Source: Streptosporangium sp. NBC_01755 (GTDB lineage: Bacteria > Actinomycetota > Actinomycetes > Streptosporangiales > Streptosporangiaceae). Taken from it: a stretch of DNA of 64,000 nucleotides. The stretch covers positions 7,936,001 through 8,000,000 of the forward strand of contig NZ_CP109131.1 in NCBI RefSeq assembly GCF_035917995.1, written 5' to 3'. The notes beneath the pieces were generated by a model, which saw nothing but the letters and a program-made list of their open reading frames with translations, had not been told where the DNA came from and ran no database searches. This document shows, in pieces, positions 1 to 10,496 of the stretch. The first letter of the stretch is position 1. Each line of letters begins with the position of its first letter. Both the position numbers and the translations under genes were made by a program.

Positions 1-483
1 CCCACCGGCACCGAGGGCGAACTGTGGGTGGGCGGCACCGCCCTGGCCACCGGCTACGTCGGCCGCCCGGCGCTCAACGCCGAGAAGTTCCCGGTGGCCG
101 ACCTGGGCGACGGCCGGCGGCGCTGGTACCGCACCGGCGACCTGGTACGGCAGCTGGAGTCGGGGGCCTTCGAGTATCTGGGCCGCATCGACTCCCAGGT
201 CAAGATCCGCGGGTTCCGCGTCGAGCTGGGCGAGATCGAGGCCGTGCTGCGGCGCACGCCCGGCGTGAGCGACGCGGCCGTGATCGTGCGGACCCCGCCC
301 GGCGGCGAGCCGCTGATCGTCGCCTACCTGGTCGGCACCCCGCTCTCCCCCCGCGAGCTGCGCTCCCTGTGCGGCGAGCGGCTGCCCGCGCACATGGTCC
401 CCGCCCGGTTCCGCACCGTTCCCCTCCTCCCCCTGAACCCCAACGGCAAGCTCGACCGACTCGCCCTGGAGGCAGCTCGATGA
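1..483 (+). CDS. NRPS adenylation domain, C-terminal end (gene partial at 5')
   Basis: Frame 1 is open from the window edge to TGA at 481-483. The visible 160 residues are the C-terminal part of an AMP-forming adenylation domain, which activates an amino (or other) acid as its acyl-adenylate. Core motifs seen in order are the A6-like TGYVGRP, A7 YRTGDL, A8 GRIDSQVKIRGFRVELGEIE and A10 NGKLDR. The protein ends about ten residues after A10, so no thiolation (PCP) domain follows in the same chain; the activated residue must be handed to a carrier on another protein or to one further upstream out of view. The specificity pocket (A3-A5) lies outside the window, so the substrate cannot be predicted. 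The stop overlaps the start of the next gene (ATGA), indicating an operon. Confidence 0.93.
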   Translation, partial: PTGTEGELWVGGTALATGYVGRPALNAEKFPVADLGDGRRRWYRTGDLVRQLESGAFEYLGRIDSQVKIRGFRVELGEIEAVLRRTPGVSDAAVIVRTPPGGEPLIVAYLVGTPLSPRELRSLCGERLPAHMVPARFRTVPLLPLNPNGKLDRLALEAAR

Positions 484-1820
484 CCACCGCGATCCGAGAC
501 GCGATCCTGTCCGGCGAGAGCGACCCCGGCCACTTCGAAGCGCTGGCCGTACCGGAGTCCTACTGGGGCGTCACCGTGCACGCCGACGAGGTCGACATGT
601 TCGCCGGGATGCGCGGCGAGGACAAGGACCCGCGCAAATCGCTGCACATCGAGGAGGTCGCCACCCCCGAGGTCGGTCCCGGCGAGGCGCTGCTGGCGGT
701 GATGGCCAGCTCGGTCAACTACAACACCGTCTGGTCGGCGATCTTCGAACCGGTGCCCACCTTCGGGTTCCTGCGCCGCTACGGCCGCCGCAGCGAGCTG
801 GCCCGCCGCCACGACCTCCCGTACCACGTGCTCGGCTCCGACGTCAGCGGCGTCGTACTGCGGGTGGGCCCCGGCGTCACCAAGTGGAAGCCCGGTGACC
901 GCGTCGTCGCGCACTGCCTGTCGGTGGAGCTGGAGGACCCCGAGGGGCACGACGACACCATGCTCGACCCGCAGCAGCGGATCTGGGGATTCGAGACCAA
1001 CTTCGGCGGCCTGGCGGAGCTGGCACTGGTCAAGGCCAACCAGCTGATGCCGATGTCCGCCCACCTGACCTGGGAGGAGGCCGCCTGCTCCGGGCTGGTC
1101 AACTCCACCGCCTACCGGCAGCTGGTCTCGCGCAACGGCGCGGCCATGAAGCAGGGCGACACCGTGCTGATCTGGGGCGCCTCCGGCGGGCTCGGCTCCT
1201 ACGCCACCCAGTACGCGCTGAACGGCGGCGCCACCCCGATCTGCGTCGTCTCCTCCCCCGCGAAGGCGGAGCTGGCCAGGAAGGCGGGCGCCTCCCTGAT
1301 CATCGACCGGTCCGCGGAGGAGTTCTCCTTCTGGCTCGACGAGCACACCCCCGACGTCGCCGAATGGCGGCGCTTCGGCAGCCGTATCCGCGAGCTGACC
1401 GGCGGCGACGACCCCGACATCGTGTTCGAGCACCCCGGCAGGGAGACCTTCGGCGCCAGCGTCTACGTCTGCCGGCGCGGCGGGACGGTCGTGACCTGCG
1501 CCTCCACCACCGGGTTCATGCACTCCTTCGACAACCGTTACCTGTGGATGAGCCTCAAGCGCGTCGTCGGCACGCACTTCGCCAACTACCACGAGGCCTG
1601 GCAGGCCAACCGGCTCGTCATCCGGGGACGCGTCCACCCGACCCTGTCGCGCACCTACGCCCTGGAGCAGAGCGCCGAGGCCGTGCACGACGTCCGCCGC
1701 AACACCCACCAGGGCAAGATCGGCGTGCTCTGCCTCGCCCCCGCCGAGGGTCTCGGCGTGCGCGACCACGAACTCCGCGAACGGCACCTGCCGGCGATCA
1801 CGCGCTACCGGTCCTCCTAG
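480..1820 (+). CDS. ccr: crotonyl-CoA carboxylase/reductase
   Basis: This 446-residue protein has the length and sequence of crotonyl-CoA carboxylase/reductase, an MDR-family enzyme that reductively carboxylates 2-enoyl-CoAs with NADPH and CO2 to alkylmalonyl-CoA such as ethylmalonyl-CoA. The dinucleotide loop is GASGGLGSYATQ at about residues 233-244. Residues known to bind CO2 in the family appear conserved: Asn82 in VNYNTVW, Phe171-Glu172 in WGFETNFGG and His366 in GTHFANY. It should therefore be a true carboxylase and not a simple enoyl reductase. The start is the ATG at 480, which overlaps the stop of the adenylation gene; upstream codons in this frame lie inside that gene. In a biosynthetic cluster it normally supplies polyketide extender units, which suggests PKS modules or an alkylmalonyl-using step outside the window. 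Confidence 0.95.
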   Translation: MTTAIRDAILSGESDPGHFEALAVPESYWGVTVHADEVDMFAGMRGEDKDPRKSLHIEEVATPEVGPGEALLAVMASSVNYNTVWSAIFEPVPTFGFLRRYGRRSELARRHDLPYHVLGSDVSGVVLRVGPGVTKWKPGDRVVAHCLSVELEDPEGHDDTMLDPQQRIWGFETNFGGLAELALVKANQLMPMSAHLTWEEAACSGLVNSTAYRQLVSRNGAAMKQGDTVLIWGASGGLGSYATQYALNGGATPICVVSSPAKAELARKAGASLIIDRSAEEFSFWLDEHTPDVAEWRRFGSRIRELTGGDDPDIVFEHPGRETFGASVYVCRRGGTVVTCASTTGFMHSFDNRYLWMSLKRVVGTHFANYHEAWQANRLVIRGRVHPTLSRTYALEQSAEAVHDVRRNTHQGKIGVLCLAPAEGLGVRDHELRERHLPAITRYRSS

Positions 1821-1830
1821 GGAGACAACG

Positions 1831-2439
1831 ATGACCTCGACGATCCTCCAACCCGGCGCGGGTGTGCGCGGGGGCGGCAAACCACTGGAGATCTGCGTCT
1901 TCTGCGGCGCGGGCCGAAGCAACTCACAGGTCATCGTCGACATGGCCAGGGCGACCGGCAGGCTCATCGGGCAGCGCGGCCACCGCCTGATCTACGGCGG
2001 TGGCGGCTCCGGCCTGATGGGCGAGGTGGCGTGGGCCGCCTCGGAGACCGGCGCGACCATCCGGGGGATCATCCCCCGGTTCCTGTACGAGCGGGAGCAG
2101 GCGATCGCCGCTCCGGCGCAGGAGACGCACCTGACCGACAGCCTGCACCGGCGCAAGGAGCACATGCTGCGCGGCGCGGACGCCTTCATCGCGCTGCCCG
2201 GAGGCTACGGGACGCTGGACGAGATCCTTGAGGTGATCTCCGCCACCTACCTGGGCATGTCCGAGAAACCGCTGGTCATCGTGAACGCCGAGGGCGTCTG
2301 GGACGGCTTCATCAGCCTGGTCGAGACCCTGCGGCGGTTCGAGCTGATCTCCCGGGCCGGGCAGCCGATGTTCCACTCCGTCACCTCCCCCGAGGAGGCC
2401 GTCTCCCTCGTCGAGCGCCTGACCGTCCCGGCGACCTGA
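1831..2439 (+). CDS. LOG-family protein (TIGR00730 Rossmann fold)
   Basis: This 202-residue protein carries the LOG (Lonely Guy) signature PGGYGTLDE at about residues 122-130, preceded by the conserved RRKEHM basic stretch and a GGGSGLMGE phosphate-binding loop near residue 53. Family members hydrolyse the N-glycosidic bond of nucleoside 5'-monophosphates (cytokinin riboside phosphates or AMP) to release the free base. ATG 1831 has GGAGA five bases upstream and follows the ccr stop by only ten bases. Its place between ccr and an NRPS gene suggests a role in the natural-product pathway, perhaps in making or releasing a purine-like piece, but this is inference; LOG proteins also occur as general housekeeping enzymes. 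Confidence 0.88.
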   Translation: MTSTILQPGAGVRGGGKPLEICVFCGAGRSNSQVIVDMARATGRLIGQRGHRLIYGGGGSGLMGEVAWAASETGATIRGIIPRFLYEREQAIAAPAQETHLTDSLHRRKEHMLRGADAFIALPGGYGTLDEILEVISATYLGMSEKPLVIVNAEGVWDGFISLVETLRRFELISRAGQPMFHSVTSPEEAVSLVERLTVPAT

Positions 2440-2458
2440 CCCCCACTGGAGGACCTCG

Positions 2459-5400
2459 ATGGAGACCCGAGCGCCGCTGTCCCAGGCGGACAAGCGCGCC
2501 CTGCTCGCCAAGCTGATGAAATCGGGCGCCGTACCCTTTCCGCTCTCCTACGGCCAGCAGTCCCTGTGGTTCATGGACCGGATGCGCAGCGAGGCCGGCG
2601 TCGCCTACAACATGCCGTTCGCCTGGACGGTGCACGGTGAGGCCGACCCGGAGGCGCTGCGCGGCGCGTTCGCCTGGCTGGTGGCGCGGCACCCGATCTT
2701 CCGCACCACGTACGGGCACGTCAAGGGCATGCCGGTGCAGCGGGTCGCCCCGCAGGGGGAGCTGGACTTCCGCGTCGTCGCCCTCGCATCCGACCAGGAC
2801 CTCGCGGCCCTGCTCGGCGCCGAGGCGGCCCGCCCGTTCGACCTGGAGCGCGGCCCGGTGCTGCGGGTCGTGCTGGTACGGCGCCCGGCGGCGGCGCCCG
2901 TGCTGTTCTGGGTCACCCATCACATCGCGATCGACGGCTGGTCGCTGTTCGCGCTGCTGGAGGAGCTGGGGCAGGCGTACACGGCGCTGCGCGGCGGCTC
3001 CGAGCCCACCTGCGCGCCACCCGCCGCGACCTACGCCGACTTCGTGGCCTGGCAGGCGGCGATGCTGGCCGGGCCGGACGGGGCCAGGATGGCGGCGTAC
3101 TGGACGGAGCTGCTGGCCGATCCCCCGCCGGGGCCGGCGCTGCCCGCCGACCGGCCGCGCCCTGCCGACCAGACCTTCCGGGGCGCCTCGCACGCCTTCC
3201 GGCTGGGCGCCGAGCGGTCGGCGGCGGTCGGGGAGCTGGCCGCGGGCGGCGGGGCCACCCTGTACACGACGCTGCTGGCCGCCTTCCAGGTGCTGCTGGG
3301 CCGGGCCTCCGGCCGGCGGGACCTCCTGCTCGGCACCTGGACCTCCGGGCGCAGCCGCCCGGAGTTCTCCGACGTCGCCGGCTACTTCGTCAACCCGGTC
3401 GTGCTCCGCGCCGACCTGTCGGGGAACCCCGGCTTCTCGCAGGTGCTCGACCGCACCCGGCGGGCGGTGCTCGGCGCCCTGGACAACCAGGACTACCCGT
3501 TCCCGCTGCTGGTGGAGCGGCTGGGCGCGCACCGCGACCCCAGCCGCTCCCCGCTGTTCGACGTGGCGTTCACGCTGCGCGCCTCGCACCGGGGGGAGAT
3601 CGTCCGGACCGAGTCCCCCGAGGCGGCGTCGCCGCTGGGCGCCTCCTCGGCGGGCGAGCGGGGCATGCTGCTGCGGTTGGGCGAGCTGACCCTGTCGACC
3701 TACCCCCTCGACCAGCGGACCGTCCGTTTCGACGTGGAGCTGGAGTTGGTCGCCGCGGACGGCGAGATCTCCGGCCTGCTGCGCTACAACACCGATCTGT
3801 TCGACGCGGACACGATCGCCTGGCTCGCCGAGGGCTACCTGCGGGTGCTGGACTTCGCGGCCGGCGACCCCGGCCGTCCGGTGGCGGCGTTCCCGTGGGA
3901 GCCCCGTCCCGGTGCCGGAGTACCGAGCGGGGACCCGGCCGCCGCGGTGGTGAGTCCCCCGGCGATCCCGCACGGTCCGGCCCCGCGCGCGGGCGCCCCG
4001 GCCGGGGAGAGCGTCGCGACCGGGAACACGGGCACGACCGGCCGGGTTCCGGCCGAGTTGCTGGATGTCGTCACCGCCGTCTGGAGTGAGGTACTCGATC
4101 TGGAACCCGGTGAGATCGGCCCGGACGACGACTTCTTCGGCCTGGGCGGCCACTCGCTGGCCGCGGTCCAGGTGGCGATGCGGATCCAGGACCGGCTGGG
4201 CGTGCAGGTGTCGATCTCCGACGTCTTCCACCACCTGACGGCCGCCCAGCTGGCCGCCTGGCTGGCCGGTCCCGCCGGGACCGGGCCCCGCCCGCTGCCC
4301 AGGACGCCCGGCGCCGGATACCCGCTCTCCCACGCCCAGGAGAGCCTGTGGGTGCTGAACCAGCTGGCCCCGGCGAGCCCCGCCTACAACGCGCCGCACG
4401 CGTTCCGGCTCCGGGGACACCTGGACGTCGAGGCGCTGGAGTGGGCGATCGGGCGGGTGGTCGCCCGGCACGAGTCGCTGCGCACCACGTTCACGACGAC
4501 CAGGCAGGGGCCGGTGCAGCGGGTGGCGGACCCGGCGCCGGTGCCGCTGCCGGTGGTGGAGACGGCCGACGCCGCCGGGCTCATCCTGGAGGAGTACCGC
4601 AGACCGTTCGACCTCGCCGGCGGCCCGCTGCTGCGGCCCGTGCTGTACCGGGTCTCCCCCACCGAGCACGTGCTGCTCGTCCTGGCGCACCACATCGTCT
4701 TCGACGGCTGGTCGACCGCGATCTTCTGGCGGGAGCTGTGCGCCCTCTACCGCAACCGGGTCGAGGGCTCGGCCGAACCGGCGCCGCCCGGCACCCAGTA
4801 CGTCGACTTCGCCGTCTGGGAACGCGAGTCGCTGACCGGTGAGCGGCTGTCCGGCCTGGTGGACTACTGGCGAAAGCAGCTGGCGGGCGCACCGCGCACC
4901 GCGCTCCGCCCCGACCTGCCCCGCCCCAGACGGCCGCTGTTCCAGGGCGCCCAGCACGCCTTCGAACTGCCCGTCGACGTACGCGGGCTGTGCCGCGCCA
5001 CCGACACCACGCCGCACATGGTCTACCTGGCCGCCTTCAAGGTCTGGCTGGCCCGCCGCACCGGCGTCTGGGACGTGACGGTCGGCTCGGTGGTGTCCGG
5101 CCGCTCCAGAAGCGAGGTCGCCGACCTGATCGGGCACTTCGTCAACACGGTGGCGGTCCGCACCCCGCTGGCCGAGGCGCACACCTTCACCGAGGTCGTC
5201 GACCGGGTCCGGCAGAGCCTGCTGGGCGCCTACGAGCACCAGGAGCTGCCGCTGTCGAAGCTGACCGCGGAGCTGGGCAGGGACCGCAGGAGCCCGTTCG
5301 ACGTGCTGTTCACCCTGCACGACCGGCGCCTGCTGGAGTCGGCCGACGACCGGCTGCCCGGGGTGACGGCCGACCGGCTGGTCATGCCGCTGGGCACCTC

Positions 5401-5569
5401 GCAGTTCGACCTGGCCCTGGAGGTCACCGACCTGGGCGGCCACGCGCGCGCGGTCCTGGAGTACGACACGGCGCTGTTCCTTCCGGAGACGGTCGCCGCG
5501 ATGGCCGGCGAACTGGAGCGGTCGATCACCGCCCTGGTGTCCGGCCCCGGCCTTCCCCTTGCGAGATGA
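2459..5569 (+). CDS. NRPS with condensation-thiolation-condensation (C-T-C) organisation
   Basis: This 1036-residue megasynthase fragment has two condensation domains flanking one carrier domain. C1 (about residues 25-460) starts with the LSYGQQSLW motif and has the catalytic HHIAIDG at about 153-159. The T domain (about 535-605) has FFGLGGHSL, with the phosphopantetheine serine near residue 566. C2 (about 620-1030) has LSHAQESLW and an intact HHIVFDG near 744. No adenylation, thioesterase or reductase domain is present. The carrier must therefore be loaded in trans, plausibly by the adenylation domain ending at 483 or a stand-alone one. Amide-forming release by C2 onto a free nucleophile is possible. 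ATG 2459 is preceded by GGAGG. A Pro/Ala/Gly-rich linker (about 475-530) separates C1 from T. Confidence 0.93.
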
Positions 5570-5657
5570 CACGGCGTACCGCGCGGGCGGTGCCGTCCTT
5601 CCCGGACGGACGCGGTGCGGGACGACTCGACCACGATCGGTGACCTGGAGGTCTGAC

Positions 5658-5834
5658 GTGAGCACCTACGTAGTGGTGGTCAACCACGAGGAGCAGTACT
5701 CCATCTGGCCGCACGACCGGGCCCTGCCCGCCGGGTGGACCGCCACCGGAACCCTCGGCGGCCGGGACGACTGCCTGGCCCGCATCGAGCAGGTCTGGAC
5801 AGACATGCGCCCTAAATCCCTGCGTACGCCATGA
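5658..5834 (+). CDS. MbtH-like NRPS accessory protein (short form)
   Basis: This 58-residue protein has the MbtH-family hallmarks [10 protein letters not shown] near the N-terminus, PAGW in the middle and DMRPKSL at the end. MbtH-like proteins bind the adenylation domains of NRPSs and are needed for their folding or activity. The GTG at 5658 is chosen because GGAGG lies eight bases upstream (5647-5651); the longer ATG at 5559 would begin inside the NRPS gene. The protein lacks the usual N-terminal ten or so residues (family members are about 65-75), and STYVVVV starts directly at the first beta strand. It overlaps the next gene (ATGA), and its presence shows that a MbtH-dependent A domain is used in this cluster. 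Confidence 0.92.
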
Positions 5835-7102
5835 CCGTCCTGCAGGGGACCCGGCCCCGTGTCAACGCCGGACGTCTGGTGAAGCAGGTGGCCAGGCTCG
5901 GCGCCATCGGCGCGGTGCCCGGCGGCGGGGTGACGCGGCTGGCGTTCACCCCCGGAGACGTGGAGGGTCGCGCCTACGTCGCGCGGCTCATGGAGGAGGC
6001 CGCCCTGGCCGTGCGGATCGACGCGGCCGGCAACCTGATCGGCCGCCGCCCCGGCGCCGCACCGGGGGCGCCCGCGCTGGTCCTGGGCTCGCACATCGAC
6101 ACGGTGCCGGACGGCGGCGCCTACGACGGGGCCTACGGGGTGCTGGCCGGCATCGAGGTGGCCAGGACCCTGCACGAGGAGGGCGTGCGGCTGAACCACC
6201 CGCTCGTGGTGGTGGCCTTCTGCGACGAGGAGGGCGCCCACGGGACGATGGGCATGCTGGGCTCGCACGGCTTCGCCGGGGTGCTGCCGCCCGGCGCGGC
6301 GCGCGCCCTGGACGATCGCGGCGTCCCGGTCGCCGACCTGCTGGCCGCGGTCGGGGGCGACGCCGACCGGCTGGCCGAGGCGGCCTGGTCACCCCGCGAC
6401 ATCGCCGCCTACCTGGAGCTGCACATCGAGCAGGGAGCGGTGCTGGAACGCCTGGGCGTACCGATCGGGGTGGTGGAGACGATCACCGGGCGGGTGAACG
6501 TCTCGATCACGGTCGACGGCGTGGCCGGGCACGCGGGCACCACGCCCATGGAGCACCGGGCGGACGCGCTGGACGGCGCCGCCCGGCTGGTGCTGGCCGT
6601 GCGGGCCATCGCCGCCGACGAGCGACTGGTGCTGCGCGCCACCACCGGGACATGCGCCGTCGAGCCCGGCATGTGGAACGTCGTCCCCGGCAGGGTCCGG
6701 CTCGGGGTGGAGTTCCGCGACACCTCGGCCGGGGCACTGGACGCGGCACTGACGCGGCTGGCCGAGGTCGCCGCCGAGGTGGCCGGCGCGACCGGCACCC
6801 GCGTCACGGTCGTCCCCGGCGCGCGCACCGCGCCGGTCGACTGCGACGCGGGCCTGCGGGAGCTCATCGCCCGCGCCACGGCCGGGCAGGGCCTGCCCTA
6901 CCACCGCCTGCCCAGCGGCGCCGGCCACGACGCGCAGATCGTGGCGCGGATCGCGCCCGTCGGGATGATATTCGTGCCGAGCAGGGGCGGGGTGAGCCAC
7001 GCCCCCGGGGAGTACACCGCCCCCGAGCACCTGGCGTGGGGAGCGGACGTGCTGCTCACGGCGGTGCTGATGCGCGACGCGACCCCGGATATCGAGCGGT
7101 AG
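5831..7102 (+). CDS. M20-family Zn-dependent amidohydrolase (hydantoinase/carbamoylase type)
   Basis: This 423-residue protein belongs to the M20 branch of N-carbamoyl-L-amino-acid hydrolases, beta-ureidopropionases and allantoate amidohydrolases. Metal-binding motifs are in order: [15 protein letters not shown] (His/Asp), FCDEEGAHG (Glu pair), LELHIEQG (His), and a terminal His in [10 protein letters not shown]. All look intact, so it should be an active dinuclear enzyme cleaving an N-carbamoyl, ureido or amide bond. Its ATG overlaps the MbtH stop (ATGA), so it is the last gene of the NRPS operon in view. It may remove a carbamoyl or acyl cap, or prepare an amino-acid building block; the exact substrate cannot be read from sequence. 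Confidence 0.9.
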
Positions 7103-7141
7103 CCGATGTGATATCGACTCGATCGCGTCCCATTCTACGTT
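7088..7141 (+). promoter_or_regulatory. candidate SARP-type direct-repeat box and promoter
   Basis: Four units recur at an 11-bp period: ATATCGA (7089-7095), TAGCCGA (7100-7106), ATATCGA (7111-7117) and GATCGCG (7121-7127). SARP activators bind direct heptamers with 4-bp spacers, so the geometry fits. A possible -10 (TTCTAC or TACGTT, 7133-7141) lies at the expected short distance. The repeats begin inside the stop end of the M20 gene and sit 53-106 bases before the small peptide gene. This reading rests on spacing and similarity only. Confidence 0.4.
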
Positions 7142-7193
7142 TGTCACAGAACGGAAGAAGGAAAGAAAACACCACGGATGAATGAGGTAGAAA

Positions 7194-7331
7194 ATGTCTC
7201 GGTGGATTACCTGGGTCGCGAAGGTCACCGCCAGTGCCGCGCTCTTCACCCTGCCTGTGGCCGTCGTTCAGGGTACGATCACCGCAGCGTCATCAGTCGC
7301 TCACATCACCGGCGACAGCACATGGACCTGA
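7194..7331 (+). CDS. small secreted peptide of 45 residues, unrecognised
   Basis: A 45-residue open frame begins at ATG 7194 with an excellent GAGG (7184-7187) six bases upstream. The product reads as an export signal plus a short tail: basic N-region (Arg3, Lys10), hydrophobic core ASAALFTLPVAVV, small residues ITAASSVA as a cleavage region, then HITGDSTWT at the C-terminus. I do not recognise a named family. It is encoded head-on against the SARP/NB-ARC/TPR gene and their 3' ends overlap by 39 bases (7293-7331). A strong ribosome site, a dedicated upstream repeat box and this position next to a TPR regulator suggest a signalling peptide or a modification precursor; both are inference. An overlapping frame from 7178 has no signal-like features and was not chosen. 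Confidence 0.62.
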   Translation: MSRWITWVAKVTASAALFTLPVAVVQGTITAASSVAHITGDSTWT

Positions 7332-10300
7332 TGATTCAGCAGAAATTCCCGATAAAGTAGCCAGTCGCGCCCTGATTCGCCGGTAATCCTCGGAATCGGT
7401 ATCGGTGCCACAATCCAGGGCGCGATTCAGCGCATCGGAGGCGGCGGCCTCGTCCCCTTTGAGGAGGAACACCTCCCCCAGCGCGGACAGTGCCCTGAAC
7501 CGCCACAGCCGGGTATCCAGCTCGGTGGATATCTCGAAGGTCTCAAGCAGATGGGCCACCGCCTCGTCGAACCGGCCGCGCCGGGCGTGCAACTGGCCGA
7601 AGGCCAGGTGAATCCGCGCCTCCACGAAGCGCTCGCGCACCTCCTGGGCGATGGCCAGCGCCTCGTCGAGACTCTCCACGGCGGCCTCCAGCCGGTTCTG
7701 GCGGACCTGTATCTCCCCCAGCCCACACAGGATGTACGCCTGCCCGATGCCGTCCTGCCGCTCCCTGACCAGGGCGAGCGCGGCCCGGGAGGTCGCCTCC
7801 GCCTCCCCTGGCCTGTCCTGGCGCAGCAGTGTCTCCCCCAGCCTGTTGAGTATCTGCGCCTGACCCCGCTCACTGCCCAGTTGCCGGAAGACCTCCAGGG
7901 CCTGTCTCAACAGGGGCTCGGCGAGCTCCGCTCTCCCCTGGTCAACGTGGACCTGGGCGATGCCCCCGAGCACGTGGGCCTCGGCGAAGCGGTCCCCGAC
8001 CGCGGCGAAGATCCTCTTCGCGGTGAGGAACCCCTCGAGCGCCGTGTCGAAGCGGCCCGCGAGCCGGTCCAGCAGTGAGATGTTGCGCAGCGCCAGCGCC
8101 ATCCCGTACGAGTCATCGAGCCGCTCGAACAGCTCACGCGCCGCCCACAGGCACTCGCCCGCCCGCTCCGGCATCTGCTGGAAGAGATACATGCTTCCCG
8201 TCGAGCAGAGAACGGCCGCCTCACCGCGCAGATCGCCGGTCCGGCGAGCGGCGGCGAGGGCCGTCTCGTGGGTGGTGCGCCAGTCATCGAAGTGGCTCCG
8301 GGCCTCGAACAGGGTGGTGGCGGTGACGGCGAGGTCCCAGCACAGCTCGGACGCGCCGAGGTGGGCGGCCTGGGAGACGGCGGCGACGAGAGCGCCGCGT
8401 TCGGCGTCCAGCCAGTCGAGTGGCCGCTCCAGGAGCTCGTCCGTGTCGGCCGGCCGCCACCGGGGCACCGAGCCGTGCAGCTGGGTGAAGGCCCCGCCGT
8501 ACTCCCGCTGGTGTGCCTCCTCGGCCAGCACGAGCCAGCAGCTCAGGGCGCGGGTGACGGCGGCGAGCCGGTCCTCGGGCGGTTCCTCCTCATGGGCCCG
8601 CTCCCTGGCATACAGCCGGACCAGGTCGTGGAAGCGGTAGCGGACCTGGTCGGCGCCGTCGGGACCGAGCACCTCGACGAGCTGGGCGTCCACCAGCTGG
8701 TCGATCAGGTCCTCGGCGTCGAGGCCGTCGATGTCGAGCAGCGCCGCGCCCGCCCAGGAGGCGAAGTCGGGCGCCTCAAGCAGCCCCAGCCTGCGGAACA
8801 TCAGCGCCGCCTCGGAGCTCAGGTCGCGGTAGCTGAGGGCGAAGCTGGCCCGTACGGTCAGCTGGCCGTAACTCAGCTCGTCCAGCCGGCGCCGCTCGTC
8901 GGCGAGACGCTTGGCCAGGCGGGCCGGGGTCCAGTACGAGCGGGTGGTGAGGCGGGCGCCCACGATCCGCAGTGCCAGCGGCAGCCCGTCACACAGCTCG
9001 CCGAGCAGCGCGGCGGCCTGGGGGTCCTCGTCCATGACCACGGAGTCGGCGACCCCGGCGAGCAGCGCGGCGGAGTCCGCAGCGCCCAGCACCTCCAGAT
9101 GGATCACGCTGGCCCCCTCCCTGGCGGCCAGGTCGCCCAGCGGGTCCCTGCTGGTCACGATCACGCAGCAGGTGCCGGAGCCGGGCAGCAGCGGCCTGAC
9201 CTGGTCGATGACCCGGGCGTTGTCCAGCAGCAGCAGCACCTGGCGCCTGCCGATGACGGTGCGCAGCAGGCCGGCGCGCTCGTCCAGATCCTCGGGAATG
9301 CGCTCGCCGGCGATGCCGAAAGCCCGCAGGAAGCGGTCCATGACCGCGCCGGGGGCCAGCGGCTGGGCGTTGAGGTCGTAGCCGCGCAGGTTCACGAAGA
9401 GCTGGCCGTCGGGGAAGCGGGAGGCGACCCGGTGCGCCCAGTGCACGGCGAGCCCCGACTTTCCGACCCCGCCCACCCCGGTGATGAGCGCGATGGTGAG
9501 CAGCCCCTGGCCGATCCGCTTGTCCAGCAGGGCGTCCAACTCGGCGATCTCGATGGTCCTGCCGACGAAGCAGGGCGCGTCCGCGGGCAGTTGCGCGGGC
9601 ACCACCCCGTGCTCGACCGGGGCCACCGGCTCCGCGGGCGCGAGCTCCGATCCGGTGGCGGCCTCGGAGACGGGCACGGAGGCGGGAACGGAGGCGGGAA
9701 CGGAGGCGGGAACGGTCACCCGGGCGGGTGCCGGGGTCAGCTCGGGGGCGTCGCGCAGGATGGCGTCGTGCAGGACCTGTAGCTCGGTGCCCGGCTCGAT
9801 GCCGAGCTCCTCGACGAGGTGCATCCGCCCGATCCGGTAGGTGTCCAGCGCCTCCGCCCGCCGCCCGCACCGGTATCTGGCCAGCATCAGCTGGGCGCGC
9901 AGCCGCTCGCGCAGCGGGTTGGCGTCGACGAAGACGGCGAGGTCGTCGATCAGCTCCCGGTGCCGGCCGAGTGCGAGCTCCAGCTGGACGCGCTCCTCGG
10001 TCAGCGTCAGCTGGCGATCGTCCAGCCGTCGCGCCTCGGACTCGACGAACGCGCTCTCGATACCCGCCAGGACCGGGCCGCGCCACAGGCCGCACGCCTC
10101 GGCGAACAGCCGGGCGGCGCCGGAGAGGTCGCCGGCGCTCTCCGCGGCCCTCGCCTTGGCGGCGAGGCGCTCGGCGAGCAGGACGTCGACCTGGGAGAGG
10201 TCGGCCTGCAGGATGTACCCGGGCGAGGAGGTACCGAGCAGGTTCGCCGGGGCGCCCGCCTCCACGAAGGCCCGGCGGAGCCCGGAGACACAGATGACCA

Positions 10301-10496
10301 CCTGGCTGCGGGCGGTGGGCGGCGGGCGCTCACCCCATATCGCCCCGGCGAGCAGGTCGACGGGGGCGACCCGCCCCGCGCGCAGGATGAGCGTGGCGAG
10401 AATAATTCGCTGGCGTGACCCTCCGATCGAGACCCGTTGCTCACCTACCAGGACTTCAAGTGGACCGAGAACGCGAAACGACAGAGCAGTGTCCAT
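7293..10496 (-). CDS. AfsR/SARP-family regulator with BTAD, NB-ARC and TPR domains
   Basis: This 1067-residue regulator has the large SARP architecture. An OmpR-type winged helix covers about 1-95 (RVLGPLEVLVG start, GxIWG, RRAFVEAG recognition region) and a bacterial transcriptional activation domain about 100-250. A Val-Pro-Ala-Ser repeat linker lies at about 258-275. The NB-ARC ATPase follows (about 310-620), with P-loop GVGGVGKS near 338 and Walker B-like VLLLLDNA. The C-terminus is a TPR array (about 690-1040). Such proteins activate antibiotic clusters by binding direct heptamer repeats, with ATP turnover and TPR contacts modulating activity. It sits next to the NRPS operon and is the obvious candidate for its regulator. 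ATG 10496 has only a weak GGTGG upstream. The end overlaps the small peptide gene on the other strand. Confidence 0.93.
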   Translation of the reverse strand: MDTALSFRVLGPLEVLVGEQRVSIGGSRQRIILATLILRAGRVAPVDLLAGAIWGERPPPTARSQVVICVSGLRRAFVEAGAPANLLGTSSPGYILQADLSQVDVLLAERLAAKARAAESAGDLSGAARLFAEACGLWRGPVLAGIESAFVESEARRLDDRQLTLTEERVQLELALGRHRELIDDLAVFVDANPLRERLRAQLMLARYRCGRRAEALDTYRIGRMHLVEELGIEPGTELQVLHDAILRDAPELTPAPARVTVPASVPASVPASVPVSEAATGSELAPAEPVAPVEHGVVPAQLPADAPCFVGRTIEIAELDALLDKRIGQGLLTIALITGVGGVGKSGLAVHWAHRVASRFPDGQLFVNLRGYDLNAQPLAPGAVMDRFLRAFGIAGERIPEDLDERAGLLRTVIGRRQVLLLLDNARVIDQVRPLLPGSGTCCVIVTSRDPLGDLAAREGASVIHLEVLGAADSAALLAGVADSVVMDEDPQAAALLGELCDGLPLALRIVGARLTTRSYWTPARLAKRLADERRRLDELSYGQLTVRASFALSYRDLSSEAALMFRRLGLLEAPDFASWAGAALLDIDGLDAEDLIDQLVDAQLVEVLGPDGADQVRYRFHDLVRLYARERAHEEEPPEDRLAAVTRALSCWLVLAEEAHQREYGGAFTQLHGSVPRWRPADTDELLERPLDWLDAERGALVAAVSQAAHLGASELCWDLAVTATTLFEARSHFDDWRTTHETALAAARRTGDLRGEAAVLCSTGSMYLFQQMPERAGECLWAARELFERLDDSYGMALALRNISLLDRLAGRFDTALEGFLTAKRIFAAVGDRFAEAHVLGGIAQVHVDQGRAELAEPLLRQALEVFRQLGSERGQAQILNRLGETLLRQDRPGEAEATSRAALALVRERQDGIGQAYILCGLGEIQVRQNRLEAAVESLDEALAIAQEVRERFVEARIHLAFGQLHARRGRFDEAVAHLLETFEISTELDTRLWRFRALSALGEVFLLKGDEAAASDALNRALDCGTDTDSEDYRRIRARLATLSGISAESSGPCAVAGDVSD
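9676..9711 (-). repeat. 12-bp tandem repeat, three copies, in SARP linker
   Basis: Three perfect 12-bp units (ACGGAGGCGGGA on the plus strand) encode the repeated Val-Pro-Ala-Ser linker between the BTAD and NB-ARC domains of the SARP protein. Being in frame, copy changes would only alter linker length. Confidence 0.9.

Follow-up and report, generated by a model that had tools for sequence, protein, structure and literature searches.

Tryptophan-tailed small peptides beside large SARP regulators: a possible signal that their partners would both sense and induce

In the large SARP regulator AfsR the NOD and TPR parts inhibit the SARP domain, and the protein is described as modulated by ATP and by phosphorylation; the portions of that account considered here name no peptide ligand (PMC10936776). 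Actinobacterial signals are typically small molecules according to the extracts of PMC10075063 used here. In this report we describe a small gene for a peptide with a tryptophan-containing tail (W tail) that lies beside a large SARP gene in a stretch of 64,000 nt of Streptosporangium sp. NBC_01755 (NZ_CP109131.1, positions 7,936,001 to 8,000,000), hereafter called the window. Many antibiotic clusters accompanied by large SARPs stay silent in the laboratory, and to our knowledge the activating signal of the large NB-ARC/TPR SARPs is an open question. The analysis suggests that the W-tail peptide is a signal which these SARPs both sense and switch on. Small open reading frames (ORFs) with W tails, most of them signal-bearing, occur in two fixed arrangements beside regulators of one SARP/NB-ARC/TPR clade. 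Their tails are retained in unlinked copies and repeated within some precursors, many of the genes have a promoter with 11-bp repeats, and the linked SARPs carry a signature on TPR A helices.

The pair in the window and its closest relatives

The product of the small gene is MSRWITWVAKVTASAALFTLPVAVVQGTITAASSVAHITGDSTWT, with the C-terminal end GDSTWT, and the gene shares 39 bp (7293-7331) tail to tail with the SARP ORF. The original observation, of a secreted-type small gene with a ribosome site overlapping the end of a giant regulator, is confirmed at 7194-7331 and 7293-10496. The features of the pair are the following, G003 and G167 being two relatives described below.

7110-7124, + strand: 11-bp direct repeat of SARP type in the promoter of the peptide gene, GATA-N7-GATC, a 7/8 match to GATA-N7-GATR
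7136-7141, + strand: -10-like element TACGTT, 13 nt after GATATCGACTCGA in the window and in G003
7184-7188, + strand: ribosome-binding site GAGGT, read from the sequence, 5 nt ahead of the ATG
7194-7331, + strand: gene for the 45-aa pre-peptide, from the ORF call, relatives, the N-terminal rule and a substitution comparison
7194-7301, + strand: signal-peptide-like part, aa 1-36, ending S-V-A, by a hydrophobicity and charge rule
7302-7328, + strand: predicted mature tail HITGDSTWT (aa 37-45), of which DSTWT is kept in G003 and G167
7293-10496, - strand: large SARP regulator, 1067 aa, from the ORF, Pfam, an AlphaFold2 model, and sequence and fold matches
9756-10190, - strand: BTAD domain, aa 103-247 (Pfam, 142.8 bits)
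8829-9500, - strand: NB-ARC domain, aa 333-556 (Pfam, 37.7 bits)
7458-8231, - strand: TPR array, aa 756-1013, from helix pairs in the AlphaFold2 model, with a putative peptide groove
7842-7868, - strand: R877-x3-Q881-x3-R885 on a TPR A helix, the signature of peptide-linked SARPs

The peptide has a Sec-type N-terminus by a crude charge and hydrophobicity rule, and the predicted cleavage site after S-V-A was read by eye with the -3/-1 rule. Pfam and NCBIfam hold no family for the seven peptides tried, the sole weak match being to WGxxGxxG at 16.8 bits, below the cut-off of 35. The regulator has the SARP, NB-ARC and TPR architecture of large SARPs, with three TPR_12 stretches in Pfam. Its AlphaFold2 model, built from 19 alignment rows, has a mean pLDDT of 88.4 and a pTM of 0.66; in the N-terminal part the SARP domain matches AfsR 8k60 (Foldseek TMt 0.94), and the remainder resembles STAND proteins and the TPRs of LGN/Pins.

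When the peptide was searched for in 16 genomes of the genus, strong matches were found in G000, G002 and G003 only (other best E-values were at least 0.09); it is intact in G000 and G003 and a fragment in G002. The G003 peptide is 56% identical, with the tail ADSTWT and an identical DSTWT, and adjoins a SARP that is 80% identical. G167 has a 67-aa secreted-type ORF ending DDSTWT beside a 67%-identical SARP; this peptide is too diverged for the BLAST comparison and was found by the small-ORF rule used below. Between window and G003 peptides dN, the non-synonymous rate, is 0.26 and dS, the synonymous rate, 0.60, over just 36 synonymous sites. In both G003 and G167 the two genes are separated by a gap of 12-13 nt; the overlap is therefore not conserved and is incidental, and the proposal that it provides antisense control is rejected as a general one.

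Nine window genes were looked for in the 20-kb G003 region, which holds just two of them, the peptide and SARP genes. In G002 both partners are damaged, the peptide lacking its first 11 residues and the SARP lacking its first 127 and lying in two frames. The pair thus stays together where its neighbours differ and moves as a unit, and G002, the only broken case seen, has neither partner intact. The further suggestion that the peptide tunes the adjacent non-ribosomal peptide synthetase (NRPS) genes was not borne out, because the pair lies beside other genes in G003 and the window has no strong promoter match except at the peptide gene itself (matrix score 33.6 against 11.8 for the next best, with the window site included in training). 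We note that positions 24-7102 of the window hold genes for a zinc-type dehydrogenase, a LOG-like protein, an NRPS (two condensation stretches and one carrier domain, no adenylation match) and an M20 peptidase. Homologues of all four (alcohol dehydrogenase, LOG-type, NRPS and M20 peptidase genes) adjoin the pair in the G167 region.

W-tail genes beside large SARPs and elsewhere

The query P0002 gave a match at 1e-100 in 167 of 200 family genomes, and regions of up to 20 kb were fetched around 14 SARP places of the window's own genome, 66 of relatives and the 80 best of 587 named GTDB loci. Secreted-type small ORFs with a W in the last nine residues are concentrated in the first kilobase around 76 SARPs (a large SARP was recognised in all but 8 of 81 regions), where 22 lie upstream on the same strand and 19 downstream on the opposite strand, against 0 and 1 in the wrong orientations; farther out they fall to 2-3 and 0-4 per kb, respectively. 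For the 83 SARPs of the named set the corresponding numbers are 6 and 10, against 3 and 4 in the wrong orientations. A stricter tail motif was fixed after the first 40 regions and then applied to held-out loci. A motif-bearing secreted ORF is present in the near zone of 17 of the 34 discovery SARPs, with 0 far matches in 463.5 kb, of 7 of 41 held-out SARPs (0.15 expected; 3 far matches), and of 12 of 83 named held-out SARPs (0.15 expected; 2 far matches). One of the seven (L121) is doubtful, which leaves six, and eight of the 12 remain when two doubtful calls (L206, L212) and two repeats of discovery genomes (L149, L160) are set aside. Opposite-strand controls gave 0 in the discovery set, 0 in the held-out set and 2 in the named set, one of the two being the peptide of a neighbouring SARP. 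The small frame with a D-S/T-x-W-like tail that had been predicted beside related SARPs is therefore found, held-out loci included.

Altogether 52 of the 157 distinct large SARPs are accompanied by a small frame that carries a W close to its end (42 by rule, 10 by hand), either convergent at the SARP 3' end or in tandem upstream of it, the tandem copies lying 81-549 nt away. The small-ORF rule gave 61 calls in 55 SARPs (all of 85 aa or fewer under a filter of 95), against 8 calls in 8 SARPs in the mirror-orientation control, and a motif filter left 48 SARPs. After the tree described below had been seen, L144, L195, L206, L212, L159, the upstream call at L121 and the downstream calls at L096 and L109 were dropped by hand. 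Ten members were added by hand: L090, L093, L111, L112, L115, L118, L121, L128 and L155 from a relaxed listing, and L143 from the rule listing. Some of these are without a clear signal, and the relaxed listing covered 29 loci of the peptide clade only, so that negatives outside the clade were less closely scrutinised. Named carriers include Streptomyces sp. McG3, S. poonensis, Streptomyces sp. ISL-10, Micromonospora humi, Lentzea alba, Nocardiopsis metallicus and Microbispora siamensis. Among 368 Streptomyces plasmid records with a match, five were examined: four have an annotated 'hypothetical protein' of the W-tail kind, in either geometry (one member is 101 aa long), and no W-tail peptide was found in the fifth.

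When aligned on the W, the tails largely conform to (D/N/S/G)-x-(P/T/H)-W, with G, D or T often coming next, and only about five residues make up the conserved part of the peptides. Eight precursors of the survey repeat the tail (QDPW four times; PPWG, DFPW, SDPWG and DTHW three times each; DDPWT, DMPWG and DSDPWG/SDSDPWG twice each), as do two Streptomyces plasmid precursors; that of the NBC_00503 plasmid has DDPW four times, and that of NBC_00190, with a closely similar start, has it once. For 11 pairs pooled, the proportions of non-synonymous (pN) and synonymous (pS) differences are 0.23 and 0.34 over the whole gene and 0.13 and 0.28 over the last eight codons. Downstream of the SARP at L097, L098 and L101 there are two secreted-type peptides in a row with NMHWGN, and the DNA upstream of them suggests a third frame with DNMHWGNP.

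A profile built from seven NTPWG-type peptides picked out SARP-linked genes and unlinked copies as well. In eight of nine fetched 10-kb regions there are nine such orphan genes, which end NTPWG or GTPWG and have no large SARP in view; no peptide gene was seen in the ninth candidate region (G037). All nine orphans pass the N-terminal hydrophobicity and charge rule, as do the window peptide and the curated rule-based members. At L267 about 1.8 kb separates one orphan, an NTPWG peptide (4954-5151), from the FxsB radical-SAM gene (6908-9382) of an FxSxx-COOH-type system. At L272 (4611-5187) two orphan W-tail genes lie on opposite strands with their 3' ends facing, both with a GATA box.

Direct repeats with an 11-bp period, like those of large-SARP targets, precede many peptide genes, and the window SARP is predicted to act on them. 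Period-11 repeats with a match of at least 7/8 occur in a fraction of 0.56 of 55 upstream regions, against 0.15 in shuffles, and other periods give 0.24-0.40. At the same stringency GATA-N7-GATR precedes 28 of 45 linked and all nine orphan peptide genes against 70 of 1526 other genes; the motif was read off the very promoters on which it was then counted, and the genome-wide search is the freer test. Across 34 peptide promoters TA[CG][CG]TT is the majority form of the -10-like element. The combination GATATCGACTCGA-N13-TACGTT is kept in G003, and in the window's own genome, with up to 3 mismatches allowed, the box was seen at the peptide gene and at no other candidate target. The CGATAACG seen here resembles the reverse complement of the repeat unit in the published passage considered, a likeness of the unit that leaves promoter orientation aside. 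A 42-nt matrix from 34 sites, used at a 25th-percentile threshold, has 18 matches in 783.8 kb, all of them peptide promoters; since the matrix was trained on those promoters, it is the zero matches elsewhere that are informative.

The exact pattern GATAN7GATRGCGN8TASSTT occurs at 15 sites, 7 of them new and 8 already known, in 11 of the 200 family genomes (reversed control, 1). By a fixed rule 14 of the 15 are followed by a small ORF that has a ribosome-binding site, a hydrophobic start and PW[x] at the C-terminus, which in these loci is true of 30 of 4830 random positions (0.6%); at the fifteenth (G094:C18, beside a SARP) the ORF is degenerate and has seven residues after its W. The ORF listed for each site starts 51-167 nt past the box (92-98 nt in 10 of 15), but these ORFs were picked with a preference for W tails, and the fixed-rule count with random positions is the matched control. 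This exact form was seen in the family only, and the Streptomyces peptides L152 and L166 carry CGAAA-type 11-bp repeats instead. Autoregulation of the SARP genes through the same box at their starts was considered and discarded, the box being found at 9 of 165, which is the background level.

The regulators and the weighing of explanations

In a FastTree tree of 157 SARPs the peptide calls are concentrated in a clade of 73 rows, within which geometry and tail type largely follow subclades. After hand curation all positives fall in this one clade, which holds only after curation because the dropped L144, L195, L206 and L212 lie outside it; from their sequences we regard these four rule calls as spurious. 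One subclade comprises 11 SARPs, and every member has a convergent W-tail frame, five by rule and six by eye; among the six, L112 and L128 show no clear signal and L111 lacks a start codon. Q881 is present in 51 of 52 linked SARPs (98%) and in 11 of 105 others (10%; these 11 include the broken G002 gene and one gene truncated at a contig end). R877 (96 against 44%), R804 (87 against 20%) and R885 (81 against 18%) are enriched likewise. All four residues sit on TPR A helices, which line the groove of TPR arrays, and the drop in entropy in linked SARPs averages 0.84 on A helices and 0.44 on B helices (p 5e-7). Within the clade a peptide accompanies 51 of 61 SARPs with Q881 and 1 of 11 without it (two of the latter being gaps); in the 84 SARPs that fall elsewhere in the tree there is neither Q881 nor a curated peptide.

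A few loci noted in passing deserve mention. In Streptomyces poonensis (L166, 5986-11284) two SARP-type ORFs follow one another, and a W-tail gene on the opposite strand separates them. Upstream of the L169 SARP at 5971, a regulator that bears Q881, a secreted-type 45-aa ORF ending GECEWC has the unusual upstream and opposite position. A 70-aa ORF downstream of the SARP in L086 (8451-8663) resembles one at L044 and is possibly a second small family. A conserved secreted-type peptide ending ADNPWGPGPQS is encoded in L162 (12976-13128) and L163 (11010-11162); in L162 it lies about 4 kb from a SARP without Q881, beside an ATP-grasp gene.

The repeated tails, the orphans, the SARP-type promoter and the TPR signature are consistent with a signal that the TPR domain senses, and we judge it likely that peptide and regulator are a pheromone-receptor pair with autoinduction, working in the manner of the RRNPP group with a STAND-SARP as the receptor. 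The small gene would encode a secreted pre-peptide in which the C-terminal GDSTWT tail is the signal, probably freed as HITGDSTWT or a shorter form. After export and trimming, the tail would pass back into the cell through an oligopeptide importer and bind the concave TPR groove, so relieving the inhibition by the NB-ARC/TPR part. The freed SARP domain may then bind the direct repeats ahead of the peptide gene, giving autoinduction, and could also act on targets beyond it. On balance, and with less assurance, we lean towards a wider form of this proposal, namely a widespread, so far undescribed actinobacterial pheromone system in which NLR-like STAND SARPs directly sense re-imported W tails, linked and orphan genes form one SARP-box regulon, and the tails are the missing activating ligands of the clade.

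Several observations weigh against the pheromone-receptor reading. Shared descent explains part of the association of Q881 with peptides, both being in one clade, and phylogenetically independent pairs (on average 4.1-4.7 concordant and 0-0.1 discordant) give a median p of 0.06-0.125. Ten of the 61 clade SARPs with Q881 show no neighbouring peptide, and in the window's own genome a peptide accompanies just two of nine recognised large SARPs, those of the window and L069. Tail distance tracks SARP distance to a degree reached in 0 of 2000 permutations, but the correlation is nearly equal for every part of the SARP (r 0.57 for DBD/BTAD, 0.57 for TPR, 0.56 for the arm and 0.52 for NB-ARC), so that this test gave no sign of TPR-specific coevolution. 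For single pairs dN/dS spans 0.29 to 1.15, and coding constraint is thus argued more from the tail than from the ratio. Among the SARP-linked copies, some keep the tail although no signal sequence can be recognised, several of genus g31 have GGNTPWG behind a decayed N-terminus, and at L111 no start codon would give a product of at least 25 aa. As to the promoter, 17 of 45 linked peptide genes are without a GATA box at 7/8, the exact form was found in none of 296 class genomes, and neither the matrix scan nor the exact-pattern search gave a strong match at a non-peptide gene.

Some of these points would also suit a peptide that is output only, switched on by the SARP and working extracellularly or through a different receptor, perhaps as an antimicrobial or surface factor, and not on the SARP. 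The SARP-type promoter points to regulation of the peptide and not by it, and the lack of preference of tail distance for the TPR domain agrees with this; however, the conservation of just about 5 residues, repeated in some precursors, and the sharing by linked SARPs of the A-helix residue Q881 of the TPR array, which none of the 84 SARPs beyond the clade has, speak for sensing, and we think output alone unlikely. The decayed g31 copies that keep ..GGNTPWG could instead mean that the tail acts on its SARP without leaving the producing cell, secretion being dispensable, but the window peptide, the nine orphans and the curated rule-based members all pass the N-terminal rule, which makes a purely cytoplasmic signal improbable.

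A precursor of a ribosomally synthesized and post-translationally modified peptide (RiPP), or another cluster product like those of the FxSxx-COOH or HaaA systems with their related NB-ARC/TPR partners, has also to be considered. The NB-ARC/TPR part of the regulator does match NCBIfam HaaT (380 bits, cut-off 1125) and FxSxx_TPR (64 bits, cut-off 300), in both cases far under the cut-offs, and one orphan is near an FxsB gene. We consider this very improbable, since a crude maturase motif scan was negative in the window and at all 52 peptide-positive loci (it was also negative at all 109 peptide-negative ones, so that its sensitivity is uncertain, although the FxsB of L267 was detected), the N-terminal signals are of the Sec type by the crude rule, and other genes lie beside the pair in G003. 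Control in cis, by a leader peptide or antisense overlap that tunes the SARP transcript, draws on the 39-bp overlap in the window and on the closeness of the tandem copies upstream of their SARPs. With no overlap in G003 or G167, many pairs convergent and the orphans unlinked, it is given hardly any credence.

If the pheromone-receptor reading is true, and synthetic tails activate the SARPs, the ligand could be read from a genome by finding the SARP, reading the adjoining W tail and adding the peptide, and TPR-type peptide signalling would extend to the Actinomycetota and to NLR-like STAND receptors. With the common promoter and the Q881 signature as guides, more pairs and more orphan signals can be located in sequence data.

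Comparison with known systems

The open-access literature yielded no case of a SARP tied to a small secreted peptide, in a search whose broad queries were followed by their top matches only and which did not extend to subscription papers and preprints. The TPR fold, in sequence matches at about aa 827-1016 and in fold matches, is held in common with LGN/Pins, which have been solved with peptide or protein partners. LGN/Pins TPRs hold extended peptides; these are eukaryotic polarity proteins, however, and only the fold is in common. The FxSxx-COOH and HaaA RiPP systems have, as here, a small peptide with a C-terminal motif and a related NB-ARC/TPR protein; they differ in having a radical-SAM maturase and a partner without a SARP domain. 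AfsR and the large SARPs have the SARP, NB-ARC and TPR architecture and the 11-bp direct-repeat boxes in common with the window system, whereas none of the 84 large SARPs outside the peptide clade has a surviving rule call, four calls there having been dropped by hand.

A further likeness is to NosP, named in a review (PMC10972967) as a SARP-family regulator that responds to a peptide; by a title cited there, the peptidyl ligands come from the nosiheptide precursor. The RRNPP regulators (Rap, Rgg, NprR, PlcR and PrgX) likewise adjoin the gene for a small secreted pre-peptide, on the extracts of PMC10075063 used here. Of the five criteria given there, the range for propeptides (10-100 aa) takes in the 45-aa window peptide, the regulator has TPRs, and the peptide gene is directly adjacent to the SARP gene in the window and, the orphans excepted, in relatives; for Sec secretion the charge and hydrophobicity rule makes the peptide a candidate. 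The system is nevertheless not filed as RRNPP, because the 1067-aa receptor lies outside the range of 250-500 aa. Where RRNPP receptors of that size are described in those extracts (PMC10075063), the receptor here is of about 1000 aa, with SARP and NB-ARC domains, and belongs to actinobacteria.

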